Part shown: positions 5,573 through 20,520 of the stretch, piece after piece
Layout: each line of letters begins with the position of its first letter
Position numbering within the stretch: the stretch's first letter is position 1
NCBI GenBank assembly: GCA_016190005.1
Contig: JACPRK010000105.1
Location: 1 to 64,000 of the forward strand
DNA from: Candidatus Wallbacteria bacterium
Lineage (GTDB): Bacteria > Muiribacteriota > UBA6191 > JACPRK01
Direction: 5' to 3'
Length of the DNA stretch: 64,000 nucleotides
Program-made: the position numbers and the translations under genes
The notes under the pieces: model-generated
What the model was told of the DNA's origin: nothing
The model's database searches: none
The model's input: only the letters and a program-made list of their open reading frames with translations

Positions 5573-6625
5573 ATGAAGCAGCTCCGATTCGGCATCACCC
5601 TGGTTCTGACGCTCACGATGCTCGCCGGCTGGGCACCGTGTGCGGCGCAGGATACGGAAGAGGGTCTCACCGACGAGATTCCCCTCACCGCGAAGAGCGC
5701 GGGCGCGCCGCCGCCAGCCGGCGGACCGGCTACCTTCCGAGCTGGCGATGGCCACGAGATCCCCATCCAGCGCGACTGGTCCACAGAAGAGGACCCGACC
5801 CGCTACGAATCGATGGCACTCGACCAGCAGCCGTTCCGCTTCGACCAGCGCCAGCCGTCGCACGTCTACACGGAGCAGCGGCCGGGCCAGCAGCCTCTCT
5901 ACTACTTCAAGGACGTCCGCTGGTACCAGTCGGACCGCGCAGAGGGCGCCAAGTTCGGCCGCAAGGCGTTCTTCACCACGGTGCGCGTCGACCTCGAGAA
6001 GGTCAAGGCGGCCTGGTTCTGCATGAAGCCCTTCGCTCCCAAGTTCGTCGCCGGGCATGCCGCACTGCTGCTCGAGTTCGAGCCGGGCGGCTTCGTCAAC
6101 CTCGACGGCCAGGAGAGCCCCGGGTTCGTGCTTTCCTACGAGGCCTATCTGAAGGCCAGCCAGCGCTACGGCATGATCGGCGGCCAGTTCAGCCGCAAGT
6201 TCCGCATCGTCTACGTCGTCAGCACCTGGCACGACTTCCTGGTCCGCAGCATCCGCTTCAACGGGAGCATCGTGAAGCGCTGGAAGCTGTCGCTCGACAA
6301 GACCCAGCTCCAGCACCTCTCCGTTGCCATCGGCAAGGTCGTCCTGGCCGATCACTCCGCAGAGCGATACAACACCACGCGCGCCTCCTGCGTGACGGCT
6401 GCGCTCGAGCTCGCCATGAGCATCTTGCCGCCGGAGCGCCGCTCCCCCGAGAAGTGGCTCTGGGGCCTGATCCAGAACCCGGGTTGGGCACTTCCGGTCT
6501 TCGCCGACAACGTCCTGCGCAACAAGGGCCTGATCCGCGACCCCAAAGAGACGATCAAAGAAGTGCCGATGGTCTCCGGCGCGACCGCCGCAGCTCCCAA
6601 CCCCGCCGACATCCGGCTGCGCTGA
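5573..6625 (+). CDS. Secreted protein with GHAALL/His and NTTRASC/Cys motifs, possibly DUF4105-like
   Basis: 350 aa with a signal peptide (hydrophobic ~7-24, cleavage probably near CAAQ). The start follows GAGAGGCCACC; the same 11-mer precedes the start at 8231. The body has GHAALLLEFEPGG (~160) and, ~100 residues later, YNTTRASCVTAAL. A His motif followed by a Cys motif recalls DUF4105 and circularly permuted papain/NlpC-like folds, but this rests on motif similarity only. No partner gene is obvious. Likely periplasmic or surface. Function unknown. Confidence 0.75.
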   Translation: MKQLRFGITLVLTLTMLAGWAPCAAQDTEEGLTDEIPLTAKSAGAPPPAGGPATFRAGDGHEIPIQRDWSTEEDPTRYESMALDQQPFRFDQRQPSHVYTEQRPGQQPLYYFKDVRWYQSDRAEGAKFGRKAFFTTVRVDLEKVKAAWFCMKPFAPKFVAGHAALLLEFEPGGFVNLDGQESPGFVLSYEAYLKASQRYGMIGGQFSRKFRIVYVVSTWHDFLVRSIRFNGSIVKRWKLSLDKTQLQHLSVAIGKVVLADHSAERYNTTRASCVTAALELAMSILPPERRSPEKWLWGLIQNPGWALPVFADNVLRNKGLIRDPKETIKEVPMVSGATAAAPNPADIRLR

Positions 6626-10927: not shown

Positions 10928-11743
10928 CTACTTCGCGACACGGAACCCGACATTGAAGTAGTTGAACGTGGGAAAGCTCCGCGCGAAGTCTCGCCGCGAG
11001 GCCCGCACCAGAGACGGAGCGCTCGCCCAGCTGCCGCCGCGCAGCACGCGCAGGCTGCCCTTCGTCGGTCCCTTGGGGTCGCGAGCGGGGCCCGTCAGGT
11101 AGTAGTCGGGATCGAATCGGTCTGCCACCCACTCGGCCACGTTGCCGGCCATATCCAGGCAGCCCCACGGCGAGGCTCCATCCGGAAGCCGGCCGATCGG
11201 CGAGGCCCACTCGAAGCCGTCCGATCCCCTGGAGGTCCCCGCGCAGTTGGCGCGCCAGTCTCCCTCCCAGCCTGCGGGTTCGTTGCCCCACGGGTAGATC
11301 CGCCCGTCGTCGCCTCGCGCCGCGAACTCCCATTCGGCCTCGGTGGGCAATCGCAGCCCCGCCCAGTTGCAGTAGGCCTCGGCATCTTCGAAGGTGACGC
11401 CGAAGACGGGGTAGTCGTCACGGTCACACCAGTCGGGCCGAGCGGGTTGGGGGTGTCGCGCTTGCTTGCAGAACTGGATGTACTGCTCCCAGGTAACCTC
11501 GGTCAGCCCAATGTGGTAGGGCGAGAGCATCACCTCGTGCACGGGCTGCTCGTGCGGGGCTCCGCGCTCGTCGCCCATCTGGAACTTGCCGCCCGGGATG
11601 TAGACGAGCACACTCCCATCACGGGGATTTCGGAACTCCTCGCCCTGCCCATATGCCTTGGCGTACGAAGACGTGATGGGGGTCTGAGCCATTGCGGGCG
11701 CCGCGGCCAACCATGCCGCCAGCAGCAACGACACCGCTTGCAT
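10928..11743 (-). CDS. Secreted FGE-sulfatase (SUMF1-like) domain protein, non-catalytic type
   Basis: 271 aa with a signal peptide (MQAVSLLLAAWLAAAPAMA). The SUMF1/FGE fold is marked by IPGGKFQMGDERG, TEVTWEQYI, RLPTEAEWEFAARG, YPWGNEP, DMAGNVAEWV, RVLRGGSWAS and a C-terminal NVGFRVAK. In true formylglycine-generating enzymes a Cys pair lies near the RGGS segment; here it reads RGGSWASAPSLVRASRRDF with no Cys, so catalytic FGE activity is unlikely. The ATG overlaps the upstream kinase stop (TGATG), so the two are probably co-translated. Kinase/FGE-like pairs occur in several phyla with abundant Hanks kinases. Confidence 0.9.
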   Translation of the reverse strand: MQAVSLLLAAWLAAAPAMAQTPITSSYAKAYGQGEEFRNPRDGSVLVYIPGGKFQMGDERGAPHEQPVHEVMLSPYHIGLTEVTWEQYIQFCKQARHPQPARPDWCDRDDYPVFGVTFEDAEAYCNWAGLRLPTEAEWEFAARGDDGRIYPWGNEPAGWEGDWRANCAGTSRGSDGFEWASPIGRLPDGASPWGCLDMAGNVAEWVADRFDPDYYLTGPARDPKGPTKGSLRVLRGGSWASAPSLVRASRRDFARSFPTFNYFNVGFRVAK

Positions 11744-14700
11744 CAGAAGCCGCTTCCGACCGCGCGGATGGCGGCCACGCCGGCGCCAAAGGCTGCCGTC
11801 GACATGGCGAGCCCGCAAAGCGCCGCAGCCAAGCGCCAGCGCTCGCCCTTCGGGTCCTTTCGAGCCATCGCGAATCGGGTGACGCCCGCAAGCCACTTGC
11901 CCGCCAGATAGCCCGCGGCGGCCATCGCGACCCAGGCAGCGAGCCCGCGTTTCGTGAAGGGGTCGAGACCCGGTACAGGTACTCCGAAGAACGGCATCAG
12001 CTCGGGCAGCAGCAGAAATGCTCCGGGCACCAGGGTCGCCATCCCCCACCGCCAGATCGCTTCGTCCAGGTTCGAGCGCGCGTTCATCGCAACGCGGCGC
12101 ACCAGGGAGTGCGGGTCGGTGGCGGCGAAGACGCGCGCAACGGGAGTAAGGGCCAGACGGTGGTCGACGGCGTCTCGTTCCTTGGAGCGTTCCAGCCCCT
12201 GATCCAGGCGGATGACGAGCTCCTCGGCCCACCGGTGCTTTTGTTTACGCAGCCAGGCCACGAGCTCCAGGGCGCGATTCACCTGGTCGGCTTCGCCGAC
12301 CCGCGAAAGCACGAACTTCTCCAGCTCACGCGACTGGTTCGAAACGGAGTCCCGGAGCCAAGGAATCTCTTGCATCTTGTGAGTCTTTAAGAAGCCGCTG
12401 ATTGCCTCGCTCTGGGCTTGCAGCTCTTCTGCCTTCCCGTCCAGCGCCAGCTGCGTCAAATGTGCCTGGAGCGCGGCCAGGATGTCGGCCACCGCGGAGT
12501 GGAGCGGCACCAGTGGCACCAGCAGGAAGAACGTCCGCCGGTAGGCGTCGAATTCGCCGCGCTCCCGCAGGGCCGTGATCGCTTCGCGGGCAGCGGCCTG
12601 GAACTTCTCCTCTCGCGCAGCCTGGATCAGCGGGCCAACCTCAGGGTGGTCACCGATGCCCTTGGCATGGGCCGCCAGCTCCAGCAGCGGCTGCGCCCGG
12701 TCGTGCATCGGCCCTCGCAGCACTGACTGCAGTACGGCCCAGAGCTGCCTCACGAAGCCCTGGGCCAGCACTTGCCGTGGGCACCACGCCTGCAGCCGCA
12801 TCCAGGCAGCTATCGCCCGGGCAACTTCCTGCTGCTGCTCCTCGGTGAGCGACTGGTTGGACGCGGACGGATCGTAGTTCGTCAACCTCGCCGAGAACGT
12901 GCGGTCGAAGGCGGCGGCCAGCGCGGCCACTCGCGGGTCCTCGTCGAGCTTGGCCTCGGGCAGACCCAGCAGCGCCATCGCGTCCGAGAACTGCTCGGGC
13001 TGCTCCAGCATCGAGACGATGGTGTCGATGAAGCCGTCCTCGTAGCCGTCCAGCATGTTCGCGAAGAGCGGCGAAAGGTCGGGCCGGATGTGCGAGAGCT
13101 CCTCCTGCAGCCGGCGTCCCCAGTGGCAGCCTCCAGCGATGCGGCCCGACTTCAGTTCCCCGCCCAGCCTCTTGCGGAACGCGCGCAGGGTCGCGGGCAG
13201 CGAGGACAACTCGGGGCAGAGGCCAATGAGCGCCGACAGGTCCCGATAAATGTGATCGGGTTTGCCACCCGTGTCGCACTGCCTCTGCAACGCCGCCGCG
13301 CGCTCCTGCAAGGCAGAGCTCCGCAGGCCGGACAGGGTCTCGTTGGCACCGCGGATGGGCCAGGCGACGCCCATCAACGCGTCTACCAGGTGGTCCGACT
13401 TTTCGAACTGCGCCTTGCGCAGCAATCCCTGAATTCGCTCCAGCGCCAGCTTGAAGAGCGTCTGGCCTTCCTGTGCCAGCATCTCCAGATCCGCCATCTG
13501 CGCCAGCGCCCGTGCCAGTGTGCCCGACGGATCGTCTCCTTCCAACGCGGTCTGCACTTCCTCGAGCAGTGAACGGCGATGGGCCACCAGGACCGCGGCC
13601 CAGCGAGTCTTCCACTGTCCCGAGGCGTCCAGCGCCACCAGCTCGGAGAAGGGCCGTCGCAAGTCCCGGAACTTCGCTGTCGCTCCAGTCGACAGCAGCC
13701 GCTGCGCCAGCGCGAGCGCCGCTTGCTGACATGGGTCCCGCCACTCGGGCGGCCCGTCCGCTCCCATCGCCTCCTGCGCCAGCGACAGCGCCTCCCCGGG
13801 GTCCGTGTCCCAGAGCGCCGGGTTTGTCATCAGCGGAACGGCTCGCCCCCGGATCATCTCCAGCAGCCGCGGTTCGCAGGTGGCGAAGCCGCCCTCGGGC
13901 ACGGCATCGACCGAGGCCTCCTCTCCCTCGAGCTCGCAGATGGCGTGGCCGAGCCAGGAGAAGTCGAGAGTCAGCTCGTCGTCCATCGAGGCCGACTCGC
14001 CCACCACGGTGGTCGACTCCAGCATCGTCTTGGCCCTCGGTGCCAGCTCCGGCCACGGGAAGGGCGATGGCAGGTCGGAGGCTGAAAGCACTCCGCCGTT
14101 CAGTCGCATCAATCTCTGGGTCGGGGCTCCTGCCAGATCCTCCTCCGTGACGTCGGCCTGCACAGGCGGCGGCTTGACGAACGCCCGCTCTTCGTGACGC
14201 TCCAGCCTGGCCACGATGAGCAGGTATCCTGCGCGGTCGCCCATCCCAGAGCATTCGGCGCACTCGGATTCGCCGGCGCCCTTGCAGACGTCGCAGAGCG
14301 GCGCGTCCTCGCCCTGACACTCCACGCAGGGGGCCTTGCCTCGACCCCGGCAGTTGAGGCACTTGACCTGCCGATCCGTGGAGGGAATCCGGAACTCGAA
14401 GAGTGGCTTCTGCTGATTGGGCCGCTCGATCGGGTAGACCGGGTCCCACGGGTCGATCTCGCCTGGCGAGTCGAAAACGGGCTTGGGAAAGCGCTGATTG
14501 CGGTAGGGTTCGAAGCGTTCGACGACCTCGCGCTTCTCGAAGCTCAGGGCGCGGCAGAGGAGAAACGCCGGGTGGCGGAAGGCGCTATCGATCTCGAGCT
14601 CCCCTGCGATTCGCTGTGCCAGCCGCGGCATCCCGGGTAGGGCCTGCGCGGCGATCGAACCGAGCAGCCGGCTCCCGCCCGGAAGGTGCCACTCCACCGA

Positions 14701-15702
14701 GGGCTGCGGCGTCAGCTCCGGATGGAGCTCGAGCACGACCGGGCGCGTCGCCGCTGCGTGGGCGCGACGCTTGCTCCCCGTGAACTGGGCGGTCTGCCGG
14801 CCGTCGCCCATATCGCGCCTGCCGGACAGCGTCGGCACCTTCTGGTTGCCCCGCGGACCCTGAGTTGCCGCCAGCGCCTCCTGGAGAGCCGCGCGCATCT
14901 GCTCGGCGGTCTCCCAGCGATCGTCGGGGCTCTTCGACAGGGCCTTGCCGAGAAAGTCGCGAAACGGGGGCGGCAGGTGGTCGGGGATGTCCGGGGCCTC
15001 CATCACATGGCCGCGCATGATCTCCACCGGCGTGCCGACGAATGGCCTGCGGCCGACGAGCATTTCGTAGGCCATGACGCCGGCAGCGTAGAGGTCGACG
15101 CGGTGATCGTGGCGGCGGCCGAACTGCTCCGGGGCCATGTAGGCGGGTGTGCCCTTGATAACGTCTTCGGAGGTCGTGGTCGCCGCGCGCGCCGACCGCG
15201 CGATGCCGAAGTCGGTGATCTTGAGCGTCCCGTCCGCGCGCGAGAGGATGTTCTCGGGCTTGAGGTCGCGGTGGACGACCTTGTGCGCGTGCGCGTGGGC
15301 CAGCCCCGCCATGACGTGATCCAGAAGCCGGACGGCGTCCTCGGGGGGGAGCGCGACTCCTTCCATGAGCAGCTTGTCCAGCGGCTTGCCATCGACGAAC
15401 TCGAGCACCAGCAACAGACCCTGCGCGGGCGGCGCCAGGGTGAGACTTGTGAGAAAGGTCACGATGTTGGGGTGGGGAGGCATCGCCGCCAGCGCCTGGG
15501 CTTCTCGCAGGATGGACGCCGGGTCGCCTTCGACCACCCACTTGACCGCCACGTCTCTGAGGCGCTCGCCGCCGAGCATCTCTTCGGCTCGGTAGACGAA
15601 GGCGAAGCTGCCGGCGCCCAGGAACTGCTTGAGCACGTAGCGGCCCTGCTGCAGGGACTTGCCTACGAGGGCCTTTGGATTGAAGCTACGTTTCGCCAGC
15701 AT
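11743..15702 (-). CDS. Giant Ser/Thr protein kinase with DnaJ-type zinc module and C-terminal membrane segments
   Basis: Predicted 1319-aa kinase. The ATG at 15702 is chosen over the track's GTG at 15726 because GGAG sits 5 bp upstream. The kinase domain (~20-280) has GAGSFAFVY, HRDLKPEN, DFG and MAPEQFG. Around 445-490 are four CxxCxGxG-type repeats (CLNCRGRG, CVECQGED, CDVCKGAG, CAECSGMG), as in the DnaJ zinc-binding domain. Residues ~560-1170 are long helical repeats without a recognised family. Two hydrophobic segments near 1230-1310 suggest membrane anchoring. It overlaps the downstream FGE-like gene. Confidence 0.9.
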   Translation of the reverse strand: MLAKRSFNPKALVGKSLQQGRYVLKQFLGAGSFAFVYRAEEMLGGERLRDVAVKWVVEGDPASILREAQALAAMPPHPNIVTFLTSLTLAPPAQGLLLVLEFVDGKPLDKLLMEGVALPPEDAVRLLDHVMAGLAHAHAHKVVHRDLKPENILSRADGTLKITDFGIARSARAATTTSEDVIKGTPAYMAPEQFGRRHDHRVDLYAAGVMAYEMLVGRRPFVGTPVEIMRGHVMEAPDIPDHLPPPFRDFLGKALSKSPDDRWETAEQMRAALQEALAATQGPRGNQKVPTLSGRRDMGDGRQTAQFTGSKRRAHAAATRPVVLELHPELTPQPSVEWHLPGGSRLLGSIAAQALPGMPRLAQRIAGELEIDSAFRHPAFLLCRALSFEKREVVERFEPYRNQRFPKPVFDSPGEIDPWDPVYPIERPNQQKPLFEFRIPSTDRQVKCLNCRGRGKAPCVECQGEDAPLCDVCKGAGESECAECSGMGDRAGYLLIVARLERHEERAFVKPPPVQADVTEEDLAGAPTQRLMRLNGGVLSASDLPSPFPWPELAPRAKTMLESTTVVGESASMDDELTLDFSWLGHAICELEGEEASVDAVPEGGFATCEPRLLEMIRGRAVPLMTNPALWDTDPGEALSLAQEAMGADGPPEWRDPCQQAALALAQRLLSTGATAKFRDLRRPFSELVALDASGQWKTRWAAVLVAHRRSLLEEVQTALEGDDPSGTLARALAQMADLEMLAQEGQTLFKLALERIQGLLRKAQFEKSDHLVDALMGVAWPIRGANETLSGLRSSALQERAAALQRQCDTGGKPDHIYRDLSALIGLCPELSSLPATLRAFRKRLGGELKSGRIAGGCHWGRRLQEELSHIRPDLSPLFANMLDGYEDGFIDTIVSMLEQPEQFSDAMALLGLPEAKLDEDPRVAALAAAFDRTFSARLTNYDPSASNQSLTEEQQQEVARAIAAWMRLQAWCPRQVLAQGFVRQLWAVLQSVLRGPMHDRAQPLLELAAHAKGIGDHPEVGPLIQAAREEKFQAAAREAITALRERGEFDAYRRTFFLLVPLVPLHSAVADILAALQAHLTQLALDGKAEELQAQSEAISGFLKTHKMQEIPWLRDSVSNQSRELEKFVLSRVGEADQVNRALELVAWLRKQKHRWAEELVIRLDQGLERSKERDAVDHRLALTPVARVFAATDPHSLVRRVAMNARSNLDEAIWRWGMATLVPGAFLLLPELMPFFGVPVPGLDPFTKRGLAAWVAMAAAGYLAGKWLAGVTRFAMARKDPKGERWRLAAALCGLAMSTAAFGAGVAAIRAVGSGF

Positions 15703-15925
15703 CGCCGCTCCGCGAGGTCTCCTCACGTGCCACCGGTTTGGAGCGCCTCCGGGAACCGCCTGCCCGGGATGCCCCCCGCGGCCGTTGGACTATACCCCGA
15801 GCAGGGGAGGGGACGCCAGGGGCAGCCGTTGAATGCATGCAATTCCCGGGCGCATTCAAGTCTCGCCTGCAGTTTTCCGAAAGGCTGATCTGGTGAGGTA
15901 GGCCGCTTCGCACAGTGTCTCCGTC

Positions 15926-18310
15926 ATGACGAGCGTACGCCCCAGGGACCCTTCGGTGCCGTTCCAGGGCACCGTTCTGCTCCTGAGTAGCCGCGACAGT
16001 GCTGCCCGGAAGGGGGTAGAAGCGGTCTTCGAGCGAACCACCGCCCTGCGCCTCCAGACCGCCGTCGTCGGCCCGGAGGACCTGGGCCCAGCGCGATTGG
16101 CGGAGCTGGCGGCGCGCGTGGCCGAGGCCAACCCGTGTGTCCTGCTGGTGGACGGCTCTCAGGCGGCGACCATCGTCGCCAGCTGGGGGCCCTACTACCC
16201 GCCGCCGACGCCGCGCTGTCTGAGGCTGGCCGCCACCGGGGAGAGCCCTCCGATCCTGGAAGACGGCAGCGAGCTCGAAGCCTGGATGCACTCGGGCGTC
16301 TGGCGCGGCGAAGCGTGGGCTTCGCGCCTGGGCGTCAGGGATGGCCGCGCAGTCGAGGGAGCTGCGGCGCTGCTGGCCACTCTCTCGAAGCTTGCGGCAG
16401 CCCCGGTGGAGCTGCTTCTGGGCTACGCCAAGGCCTGGCCAGGAAGCGACACGATGGGCAGCCTTGCTCTGCGGCTGGGAGAGACTGTCTGGGCCTACGA
16501 TCGATTGGCCCGGCCGGGGCCGGATGCGGGGCTCTTCACGCCCGTGTCGCTGATCGATCATCTCTACGGAACGCAATCGCCGCTGGCTCGCGTGGAGGTT
16601 ACCGAGACGGTTGGCGCCTGCTACGGCCGAAACGTTCTGGGTCTGCGCCTCTTCGGCGAATCGAGGCTGGCGCTCGAGGCGATGACCGAGGAGATTGGCA
16701 AGGTCAATCTGCAGTGGCGGGAGGGCCGCCTGACCGTCGGACGCATCCTCGGGAACGTGTCGGCCCTACTGAATCGGGCATTTCTCTCGGCTGGCTGGGG
16801 CGTTTCTCCCTGGTGGGCTCGCGGGCCGCTCGATCTGTTCCTGGCGCTCCTGGGCCTGGCCGAGTCGAGTCGCCGTGCGCACGTGCTCGTCCACTACCGC
16901 CGGGTGCCGGCTTCGCAGTCGTGCCACCGGCAGGACGTGTTTCCGTGGCGCATGTGGCGGCCGTGGAGCTCGGAGTCAGTGAGGCGCAGGCTCGAGACGA
17001 AGGCCTCGATTCGCGTGGAGGCGACCGAGGGGAAGTCGAAGCTCGAGCTGGACGTGCGGGGCTACGACTGGTCCGAGGCGATTGCAGGGCGCGGCCGCGT
17101 GCCGATCGCCCCCGGGCCGGCCAGGGCCAGCGAGCAGGTCGTCCGCCTCAGTGCTCGGCAGGTCACGCACCGTGAGCCCGAGTTCCCGGCCCTCTTCGAA
17201 GACGTCACCCGGAAGCTGCTGGCGGTCACCGGCGGGCAACCGGACCGTCATCAGGCGCTCCTGCTCGCTGGTTCCGGGTCGGCAGCCGTCGAAGCCTCGG
17301 TGGAGGCAATGGCTCGTTTGGGTCGATTGATCGTCGTGTCCAACGGCGAGTACGGCGATCGCCTGGCCGAGCTGGCGACGACGCACGCGCCCGGCTCCGC
17401 CCGGGTGATCGAGTTTCCCGCCGGCAGCCGCATCGACGGCTCCGCCGTCCGAAGGGCATTGAAGTCTCAAAAGAGCGCTTCGGTATTCTTGGCCGCCGTC
17501 CACCACGAGAGCGCGACGGGGATGCTCAACGACGCCGCCGAGCTCGCGGCGCTCTGCAGGGAAGCGGGCGCAGCGCTCTTCCTCGACGCGGTCGGCAGCT
17601 TGGGTGCCCACGAGCTGGACCTCTGCCGCGGCTCGGTAACGCTCGTCGCCGGCGCCCCTCACATGGCCCTCGGCGGCCTCCCGGGAATCGGGTTCGTCGT
17701 CGGCGAGCGGCAGCTCTTCCGTCGCCTGCAACAGACCCCGCCGCGCGTCCGAAGCCTCGACCTGGCCGCGCACTACAAGTGGGCCGTCGAGCGCGGGCAG
17801 ATGCCGGCCACGCCTCCCCTGGGCGCGATGCTAGCGCTATCCGCGGCGCTGGCCGAACTGCTCGCCAGAGGTCTCGACGCCGCGCGGACCCAGCTGGCCC
17901 GGCGCGCCGCGTCGCTCAGGCGCGGCTTGATGAGCGCGGGCTTCCAGTTCCCCATCGAGCTCGACTGGATGTCCAACGTCGTCACGCCCATCCTGGTTCC
18001 CCAGCCCGTGGCCGCCGCCGATCTGCACGAGGCCCTCATGGCGCACGGCTTCGTCACCGAACGACACGGGCCGCCGCACGCCGCCGATGGCCTGCTGCTC
18101 GGCCACGCAGGGGAACTTCGCTCCGACGACCTCGAGCGATTCGTGCGCGTCGCCGAGCAGGAGCTCCGCCGTTTGCACGCGCTGGCAGTGCGCGCAGCGG
18201 CCAAGGTCCCCGTCGCTACGCGGGCCATGCAGCCCGGGCCGCGAGCCGGCCGCATCTCACGCTCTGCGCCTGGCCTGTCGGTCGGAACATTTGCAGGCTC
18301 CGGCAAGTAG
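15926..18310 (+). CDS. PhnW-like class V aminotransferase domain lacking the PLP lysine, fused to an unknown N-terminal domain
   Basis: 794 aa. Residues ~400-760 follow 2-aminoethylphosphonate:pyruvate transaminase (PhnW) closely: LLLAGSGSAAVEA, VVSNGEYGDRL, AVHHESATGMLND, LFLDAVGSLGA, GLPGIGFVVGE, RSLDLAAHYKW and LLGHAGEL. At the Schiff-base position PhnW has SANKC; here the segment is VAGAPHMALGGLPG with Met580 aligned to the catalytic Lys and no Lys nearby. The PLP-pyridine Asp (LFLDA) is kept. Residues 1-395 match no domain I know. It is probably a pseudoenzyme or has changed chemistry. It is divergent from the giant kinase; the 200-bp gap between them holds a TTGAATGC/GCATTCAA dyad at 15829-15859. 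Confidence 0.82.
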   Translation: MTSVRPRDPSVPFQGTVLLLSSRDSAARKGVEAVFERTTALRLQTAVVGPEDLGPARLAELAARVAEANPCVLLVDGSQAATIVASWGPYYPPPTPRCLRLAATGESPPILEDGSELEAWMHSGVWRGEAWASRLGVRDGRAVEGAAALLATLSKLAAAPVELLLGYAKAWPGSDTMGSLALRLGETVWAYDRLARPGPDAGLFTPVSLIDHLYGTQSPLARVEVTETVGACYGRNVLGLRLFGESRLALEAMTEEIGKVNLQWREGRLTVGRILGNVSALLNRAFLSAGWGVSPWWARGPLDLFLALLGLAESSRRAHVLVHYRRVPASQSCHRQDVFPWRMWRPWSSESVRRRLETKASIRVEATEGKSKLELDVRGYDWSEAIAGRGRVPIAPGPARASEQVVRLSARQVTHREPEFPALFEDVTRKLLAVTGGQPDRHQALLLAGSGSAAVEASVEAMARLGRLIVVSNGEYGDRLAELATTHAPGSARVIEFPAGSRIDGSAVRRALKSQKSASVFLAAVHHESATGMLNDAAELAALCREAGAALFLDAVGSLGAHELDLCRGSVTLVAGAPHMALGGLPGIGFVVGERQLFRRLQQTPPRVRSLDLAAHYKWAVERGQMPATPPLGAMLALSAALAELLARGLDAARTQLARRAASLRRGLMSAGFQFPIELDWMSNVVTPILVPQPVAAADLHEALMAHGFVTERHGPPHAADGLLLGHAGELRSDDLERFVRVAEQELRRLHALAVRAAAKVPVATRAMQPGPRAGRISRSAPGLSVGTFAGSGK

Positions 18311-18396: not shown

Positions 18397-20520
18397 ATGA
18401 GTGCCCCCACCTTCGCCCCAGAGAGTTCTGCGCGCGCGTCCCGGCTCGGCTTGGCGGCTCTCGTCGCGCTCCTGCTTGCGGTCGCATGCCCGGCCCAGGT
18501 CACCGCCGAAGGCTTCCTTCGCGATGCGATGGCCCCCTGGACCCAGATGGGTCGCGCCCTCCGCGAGGCGGGCGTCTATCACAAACGCCCCGTGATCCAG
18601 GCTGAGCTCGCCGCTGCCGGCGTCGAGATGGCGACGCTCGGCGGCCTCCGGACCAAGCCGCCCTCCGACCTTCTCAACGAGATTCTGGCCACGGCCGGCG
18701 TGCCGGCTGCCAAGCGTACGGCCCTCGTCGCCAAGTACGGCGGACCGGCCATCCACCGCCCGCTGCTCCTCACGTTCGGCGGCGAGCGGATCAACATCAA
18801 CGAGCCCTACCAGCTCGAGCGCCGGCTGACCGAGGCGCAGGTCTCCCCCGAGGCACGCCACGCCCTCATCGCCGAGCGCTCGCGCGGGGAGTTCAAGGAC
18901 CTGGCCGACTTCGAGGCTCGCCTCTCCAAGCAGTCCTCTCTCGACGGCGAAGTGGCCAAGACGGTCGCACGGGTCGTCGACGCCTCTCCGGCCGCCACCA
19001 CAGGCACCTCCCAGGCCCAGAACCCTGCCGGCCAATCGAAGGCGACAGCGCCCTCGGACGCTACTGCGGCCGGTGCCGCGCCCAAGGCGCCCGACGCCGC
19101 CCCCGCCAAGACGTCGACACCGCGCGGCGGGCCCGCCGGCCCGACGATGGGCGCCGGTTCCGCCGTCGTCGCCAAGCTGCCGGTGCGGCTCCGCGATTTC
19201 CTGACCCACCAGCCGAACGGCCGCAGCCTGCTTCCCAACGCCGCGCAGAAGTATTTCGCCAGCCCGATGCAGTCCCTGCTGACCCTGATGGTCTTCCAGG
19301 CGGCGATGCAGTACCGGGCCACCGGCCGCATCGACGTCGGAAAGGCGGTCGCCGCGACTCTGGATTCGCCCCAGGTCTGGGCGGGTCTCATCGCCGCCGG
19401 CGCCACGGCGCACATGGTCAACTCGCTCCGGGCGACGTTGGCCAAGGACACTGGCATGCGGGCGCTCTTCGGGCGCATGCTCGGGGGCTTGCCCGGCAGC
19501 ATAGCGGCCTTCGCCGCATGGGAGATCGGAGCAGGCTACATCTCCGCCGCCACCAAGGGAGTCCAGGTCCCGGGCAAGGAGAAGGGCGAAGAGGTCACCT
19601 TCAGCGACATGTTCCGCCATCCGGGCGTCGGCGCCGAGGTGCTCGGAAACCTCGGCAAGATCGCCATCAACCCGATGGCCCAGGCGCAGATCCTGGGGCG
19701 GGTGCTAAAGGACCGCATCCTGACGGCGGAGTTTTTCTTCACGGCTGCGGGCATGTGGGCCGGAACCAAGGTCGGCGCCTTCGCAGGCGTGAAGGTGGGG
19801 GCCTGGGCCGGTGCGGCCTTCGGTCCCGTCGGCATCGGCATCGGGGCGACTGCCGGCGGAATCCTGGGCGGCATTGCAGGTGGCGTGATCGGCGGCTTCG
19901 GCGGGGCGTGGGCCGGCTCGGCCGTGGACACCTGGATGGCCAGACGCGCCTACTCGAAGGCCAAGGAAGCGATCGAGAAGGCCGACGCGGACCCGGCGAA
20001 GCGCCGCGAGCTCGGCGCCAAGGGCATGGCACAGGCGCTCGATGCCTTCGACGAGGCCCGCCAGAAGCTGGTTGACAAGCTCACGACCGACTTTGCAGGC
20101 AAGGCTAAGCGATATCTGTCGGAGAAGGACCTCCCCAAGGCGCCGCCCGGCAAAGAGCCCTCCGAGGAGGAGGTCGCCCGCCGCAACCAGGGGATCATGT
20201 CGCGCCATCGTGAGGTCGAAGCCTCCCGCGTGGCCATTCTCGACCTCTTCCGCGAGGAGCTCGAGCTCCTGGCCAAGCTGATCGAGGGCGCCCGGAAACG
20301 TGGCGAGGACCCCGCGCCGCTCATCGAACGGGAGAATCGCGTCGTCATGGAAATGACTCTCTTCCTCGTGGGTACGTCGCAAGCCATCGGCGAGCTCAAG
20401 GAGCCGATGCCTGGCGACGCGATCGGTGTCTGGGGCGACGGACTCGATGCGCCGCGGCCCGAGGGTGCGCCAAGCTTCCAGGGTCTGGCCGCTCCCGCCG
20501 AGCCGGCCCCTGCGCACTGA
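18397..20520 (+). CDS. Secreted/membrane glycine-zipper protein of unknown function
   Basis: 707 aa from the ATG at 18397; the longer track ORF starts inside the upstream gene and is rejected. A signal peptide spans ~17-38 (LAALVALLLAVACPA). Pro/Ala/Thr-rich sequence (~195-245) precedes a more ordered middle. Residues ~445-510 form a long Gly/Ala zipper (GAFAGVKVGAWAG, GGILGGIAGGVIGGFGG) typical of glycine-zipper membrane segments. A charged helical C-terminus follows. No catalytic motif recognised. It converges with the small pilin gene, 15 bp apart. Confidence 0.75.
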   Translation: MSAPTFAPESSARASRLGLAALVALLLAVACPAQVTAEGFLRDAMAPWTQMGRALREAGVYHKRPVIQAELAAAGVEMATLGGLRTKPPSDLLNEILATAGVPAAKRTALVAKYGGPAIHRPLLLTFGGERININEPYQLERRLTEAQVSPEARHALIAERSRGEFKDLADFEARLSKQSSLDGEVAKTVARVVDASPAATTGTSQAQNPAGQSKATAPSDATAAGAAPKAPDAAPAKTSTPRGGPAGPTMGAGSAVVAKLPVRLRDFLTHQPNGRSLLPNAAQKYFASPMQSLLTLMVFQAAMQYRATGRIDVGKAVAATLDSPQVWAGLIAAGATAHMVNSLRATLAKDTGMRALFGRMLGGLPGSIAAFAAWEIGAGYISAATKGVQVPGKEKGEEVTFSDMFRHPGVGAEVLGNLGKIAINPMAQAQILGRVLKDRILTAEFFFTAAGMWAGTKVGAFAGVKVGAWAGAAFGPVGIGIGATAGGILGGIAGGVIGGFGGAWAGSAVDTWMARRAYSKAKEAIEKADADPAKRRELGAKGMAQALDAFDEARQKLVDKLTTDFAGKAKRYLSEKDLPKAPPGKEPSEEEVARRNQGIMSRHREVEASRVAILDLFREELELLAKLIEGARKRGEDPAPLIERENRVVMEMTLFLVGTSQAIGELKEPMPGDAIGVWGDGLDAPRPEGAPSFQGLAAPAEPAPAH

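Follow-up and report, generated by a model that had tools for sequence, protein, structure and literature searches.

A fused PhnW-like protein of Candidatus Wallbacteria that lacks putative catalytic residues in two enzyme-like parts

Background

What becomes of an aminotransferase fold once the lysine that holds its PLP cofactor has gone? The question is raised by one gene in the 64,000 nucleotides analysed here from contig JACPRK010000105.1 of Candidatus Wallbacteria, the whole of which we call the window. The original prediction, made from the letters of this DNA, had described the gene product as a PhnW-like aminotransferase domain with a replaced Schiff-base lysine, fused to an N-terminal half that matched nothing known. 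The analysis reported here points to a protein in which two unrelated enzyme scaffolds, each having lost its putative catalytic residues, are fused and kept under selection in a genome where no active homologue was found.

A fused gene conserved in one genus

Inspection of the open reading frame gave a product of 794 aa with an ATG start and no internal stops (Table 1). The draft genome to which the window belongs (G000; 4.48 Mb) is one of three MAGs of the genus, all from groundwater Candidatus Wallbacteria, and the other two, G001 and G002, each carry an orthologue; completeness is 72.7%, 83% and 74%, respectively. The fused protein is real, is restricted to the genus and is conserved there. 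By eye it has no signal peptide, and it is therefore likely to be cytosolic. The gene order around it is the same in all three MAGs: one flank has a divergently oriented Ser/Thr kinase gene and a gene whose product carries an FGE-sulfatase domain, and the other flank has a gene for a secreted-looking protein. These neighbours do not suggest a pathway.

Table 1. Coordinates in the window of the fused gene, its parts and diagnostic codons, and of other genes mentioned in the text
Feature	Position	Strand	Remarks
Whole gene	15926..18310	+	Two-domain protein; orthologues in G001 (91% identity) and G002 (59%)
Residues 1-130	15926..16315	+	Conserved (53% to G002)
Residues 131-345	16316..16960	+	Divergent GH...NC family member; His replaced by Ser179, Cys by Val278 (Ser in G002)
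PhnW/AepZ-like fold-type-I domain, residues 394-745	17105..18160	+	Profile, PDB and tree evidence
Asp554 codon	17585..17587	+	Kept pyridine-nitrogen aspartate; homologue alignment
Met580 codon	17663..17665	+	ATG in place of PLP Schiff-base lysine; alignment to 1m32 and homologues
Leu724 codon	18095..18097	+	Place of substrate-carboxylate arginine; homologue alignment
Lnb_N protein gene	5573-6622	+	PF13387 match, its His and Cys present; also in G001
FGE-sulfatase domain protein gene	10928-11743	-	Adjoins the kinase gene; PF03781, 3.1e-58
Ser/Thr kinase gene	11743-15726	-	1327 aa; DnaJ-like cysteine-motif cluster, hydrophobic C-terminus; syntenic in the three MAGs
Secreted-looking protein gene	18397-20520	+	Glycine-zipper-like stretches; no Pfam match; kept in 3/3 MAGs

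The PhnW-like domain has lost its lysine and a substrate arginine

The C-terminal half of the protein is homologous to PhnW. The family model TIGR03301 (PhnW-AepZ) matches residues 395-744 with an E-value of 8.8e-59 and a score of 199.7 bits, which does not reach the equivalog cut-off of 360.8 bits; PDB PhnW chains, including 1m32 and 9kk8, match at about 1e-31 to 1e-28, and the class-V aminotransferase model PF00266 covers residues 411-671 at 46.8 bits, above its gathering score of 21.5. The domain that had been placed at residues 400-760 is thus real, with bounds closer to 394-745. Class-V homologues were gathered within the phylum and, more widely, in about 380 genomes spread over the domain, and 59 of these were aligned with the three orthologues of the genus (the trio). 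The trio formed one clade (100/100) in the maximum-likelihood tree, on the PhnW/AepZ/PntC side (100/99), and its nearest intact relatives score 296-490 bits against the PhnW/AepZ models. The branch leading to the trio is long (1.53 substitutions per site), the composition of the trio was flagged as unusual by the tree tool, and a placement on so long a branch is to be taken with care.

When the domain is aligned to 1m32, with the query GAPHMALGGLPG under SSANKCIQGVPG, the PhnW lysine (SSANKC) falls on Met580. This column holds Met in each member of the trio (APHMA, APHMA and APDMA) and Lys in all 59 other aligned homologues, so that the predicted replacement stands and the search for further Lys-to-Met homologues finds them in both other MAGs of the genus. 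A sequencing error at 17660-17665, which the original prediction had named as a possible source of the Met codon, is ruled out, since the presence of Met in three separate MAGs excludes a base-calling error for practical purposes. No substitute for the lost residue was recognised in the alignment. Three lysines of the domain are conserved in the trio, K430, K513 and K618, and none of them looks like a relocated catalytic lysine, because homologues with an intact Schiff-base lysine often carry Lys at the same positions.

A second loss in this domain had been overlooked. The column of Leu724 holds Leu in the whole trio and Arg in 57 of the 59 other homologues, and in this superfamily it is that arginine which contacts the carboxylate group of the substrate. 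Because the lysine and the arginine are both gone, it is very unlikely that the protein is still a transaminase.

The cup that receives PLP, by comparison of the same sequences, is kept: the GSG loop, Arg479, Glu528, Asp554 and Thr629 are all in place, and S450, G451, D554 and T629 are identical across the trio, the last two being unvaried among the 59 homologues too. Ten columns are invariant in all 53 non-redundant homologues (P396, G397, P398, G474, R479, E528, D554, K/M580, G587 and T629), and nine of them are kept in the trio, the sole loss being that of the lysine. Where the trio departs from clade-conserved columns elsewhere, it does so mostly on the side of the substrate (G557, T711, E712, H714, L723 and L724). 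Retention of the cup is judged from three related sequences only.

The N-terminal half contains a divergent member of a phylum-specific family

The claim that the N-terminal half matches nothing known was right as far as the public models go, as residues 1-391 match nothing in Pfam and nothing credible in NCBIfam, but it does not extend to residues 131-345, which are homologous to the stand-alone members of a family from the same phylum, here called the GH...NC family (alignment A3). Members of other families within the phylum gave weak but recurrent matches to residues 131-243 (E 7.5e-6, 6.4e-5 and 3.9e-4), and the matched proteins stand alone, are about 345-410 aa long and carry the motifs GGHxSVAV or AGHLALxV and NCA. 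By eye they have a probable signal peptide, and they are probably secreted. When the combined alignment was used as the query, 12 out of 40 genomes from the phylum proved to carry the family, each with a single copy. In the reciprocal direction, a profile built from seven stand-alone members only picked out the window gene as its sole match in G000 (6.5e-7) and the orthologue as its sole match in G001 and in G002, the reciprocal matches spanning 1.5e-8 to 5.8e-6, and it had no match in 370 other genomes. Finally, hhalign aligned residues 131-345 to the stand-alone family over 207 columns with a probability of 97.9% and an E-value of 4.6e-13. By these profile comparisons, residues 131-345 are a newly found divergent member of an unnamed family that otherwise stands alone.

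Among the stand-alone members 36 columns are invariant, of which the trio keeps 13, mostly Gly or Arg. Whereas the stand-alone members have a putative signal peptide, an invariant His and an invariant Asn-Cys, the fused protein has none of these; the trio has Ser179 in place of His, and Val, Val and Ser in place of Cys. The N-terminal half thus holds a second, putative former active site, which shows up only by comparison with the stand-alone relatives of the same phylum and which the original prediction missed. Taken together, the losses of Lys and Arg and of His and Cys leave both halves of the protein without putative catalytic residues. Across genera, the stand-alone genes have no conserved neighbours beyond those shared by sister species. 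One of them (L076, 11395-12471 on contig C8 of G014) is split by a single in-frame TGA shortly past the NCA motif, which is either a mutation or an assembly error.

The order and spacing of the motifs in the stand-alone proteins offer a lead to a papain-like fold. In the permuted NlpC/P60 papain-like proteins (YiiX, LRAT) the His likewise comes first and the Cys about 100 residues later, as with His49 and Cys154 of the Bacillus cereus enzyme (PMC3142127), and the stand-alone member L061 has its His at 98 and its Cys at 199. On the other hand, no profile match links the two groups, and the window protein has neither the His nor the Cys. Pfam and PDB searches gave no credible match for the window part or for the seven stand-alone members. 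Comparison of the family with Lnb_N (PF13387) and Peptidase_C92 by hhalign stayed below 1%, but a positive control, Lnb_N against C92, likewise failed, so that this negative carries little weight. AlphaFold, run with three sequences, modelled the full-length protein at a pLDDT of 37 and residues 130-355 at 36.5, too poor for either pocket or fold. Lnb_N itself, thought to be papain-like, is encoded elsewhere in the window and has matches in 31 of the 57 relatives searched, with at most five per genome.

For residues 1-130, relatives outside the genus were not detectable. To the eye, with no tool in support, this segment has an alternating beta/alpha look with hydrophobic strands (TVLLLSS, PCVLLVDG), and it is perhaps a degenerate receiver-like domain. 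Viral contigs held no relatives of either half.

Selection on the gene

The gene is under purifying selection and is not decaying. Between the window and G001, Nei-Gojobori (NG86) dN/dS is 0.11 for the PhnW-like part, 0.16 for residues 131-345 (the papain-like part), 0.19 for residues 1-130 and 0.44 for the tail. Values of 0.11-0.16 argue against decay, and the earlier suggestion that the conserved scaffold reflects selection is borne out.

What the fused protein may do

The best explanation, which we put just below an even chance, is a genus-specific cytosolic double pseudoenzyme with a ligand-binding pocket. Its C-terminal half would descend from a PhnW/AepZ-type aminotransferase, having lost the Schiff-base lysine and the substrate arginine and kept the pocket for the PLP phosphate and the pyridine ring, and its central part would descend from a probable permuted papain-like hydrolase, minus His and Cys. 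Each half belongs by descent to a family whose defining catalytic residues it is missing, and the protein is counted as a functional member of neither; transamination and thiol hydrolysis would no longer be catalysed. A PhnW-type dimer would probably still form, and the fused protein would work as a binding module in which PLP/PMP, or a phosphorylated ligand like it, most likely sits non-covalently in the kept pocket, while the dead papain-like part presents a partner-binding or ligand-binding surface. From the sequence, a ligand-binding role for the fused protein may be true or false with about equal probability. It can be further speculated, as a rather unlikely case, that the protein is a receptor for vitamin B6 (PLP/PMP) or a phosphorylated metabolite, i.e. 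a non-catalytic signalling or storage protein made from two fused dead enzymes with no living counterpart in the genome.

The kept cup tips the balance only slightly towards a bound ligand and away from a pure scaffold, three related sequences being too few to establish this, and a purely structural, cofactor-free role, in which the dead aminotransferase fold serves only to dimerise the N-terminal half or as a platform for a partner, is a possibility of clear weight, though below that of the reading just given. It would account for the loss of both putative catalytic residue sets, for the long branch to the trio and for the failure to find a phosphonate pathway or an active PhnW in the genus, and the conserved pocket residues could themselves be structural; but it is not obvious what Asp554 and the GSG loop would do for the structure once the cofactor is gone, and the retention of nine of the ten universally invariant columns also speaks against it. 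The same cup, together with several conserved His residues, could instead serve an enzyme that works without the lysine, doing PMP/PLP-dependent chemistry with another general base. In the ColD-type sugar dehydratases a His takes the place of the lysine. Such an enzyme is improbable here, because position 580 is Met and the neighbouring His of two orthologues is Asp in the third; the substrate arginine and the lid motif have been replaced as well.

The other two accounts have very little probability. The protein could be imagined as the inactive, regulatory half of a heterodimer whose other subunit is an active homologue, by analogy with SPTLC1/SPTLC2 of serine palmitoyltransferase, and such Lys-less subunits of fold type I are known. 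The original prediction had seen no phosphonate genes nearby, and a search of the three genus genomes (73-83% complete) agrees: PEP mutase has no match, phosphonatase gives only sub-cut-off HAD-like background, and canonical PhnW was not detected, the best other TIGR03301 match reaching 46 bits against the cut-off of 360.8. The protein is therefore unlikely to be the inactive partner of a working PhnW, given that these three incomplete genomes yielded neither a further good PhnW match nor a PEP mutase. Least probable of all is that the gene is decaying or the sequence an artefact. This would explain the loss of both active sites, but not the same residues in three separate MAGs, a frame open throughout and a low dN/dS.

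Comparison with known systems

Within a genus-specific double pseudoenzyme as favoured here, the likeness to PhnW/AepZ (TIGR03301, TIGR02326; PDB 1m32, 9kk8) is one of whole-domain homology, with the GSG loop, NGxYGxR, Asp554, Thr629 and the order of the motifs kept, while Met stands for the Schiff-base Lys, Leu for the substrate Arg, VTERHG for the lid VIYPGK and DAVGS for DAxSS. We found no bacterial Lys-less PhnW, and no such fusion, in the open-access literature. An aminotransferase fold minus its PLP lysine is otherwise seen in the fold-type-I pseudoenzymes SPTLC1 and GcvPA, which occur as subunits in complexes where the partner is active, and it is mainly beside such partners that Lys-less proteins of this fold are known. 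The window protein differs in that no PhnW-type partner was found for it, and it offers a simple testable case of the use to which a PLP fold is put once its chemistry is gone, while also drawing attention to a still unnamed family of proteins from a phylum about which little is known. A parallel in architecture is given by the PntC-like nucleotidyltransferase-aminotransferases (PDB 6pd1; copy L013 in G014), where a PhnW-like domain is likewise C-terminal in a fusion, and likewise in this phylum, but where the N-terminal domain is a nucleotidyltransferase and the lysine is present (TSNKC).
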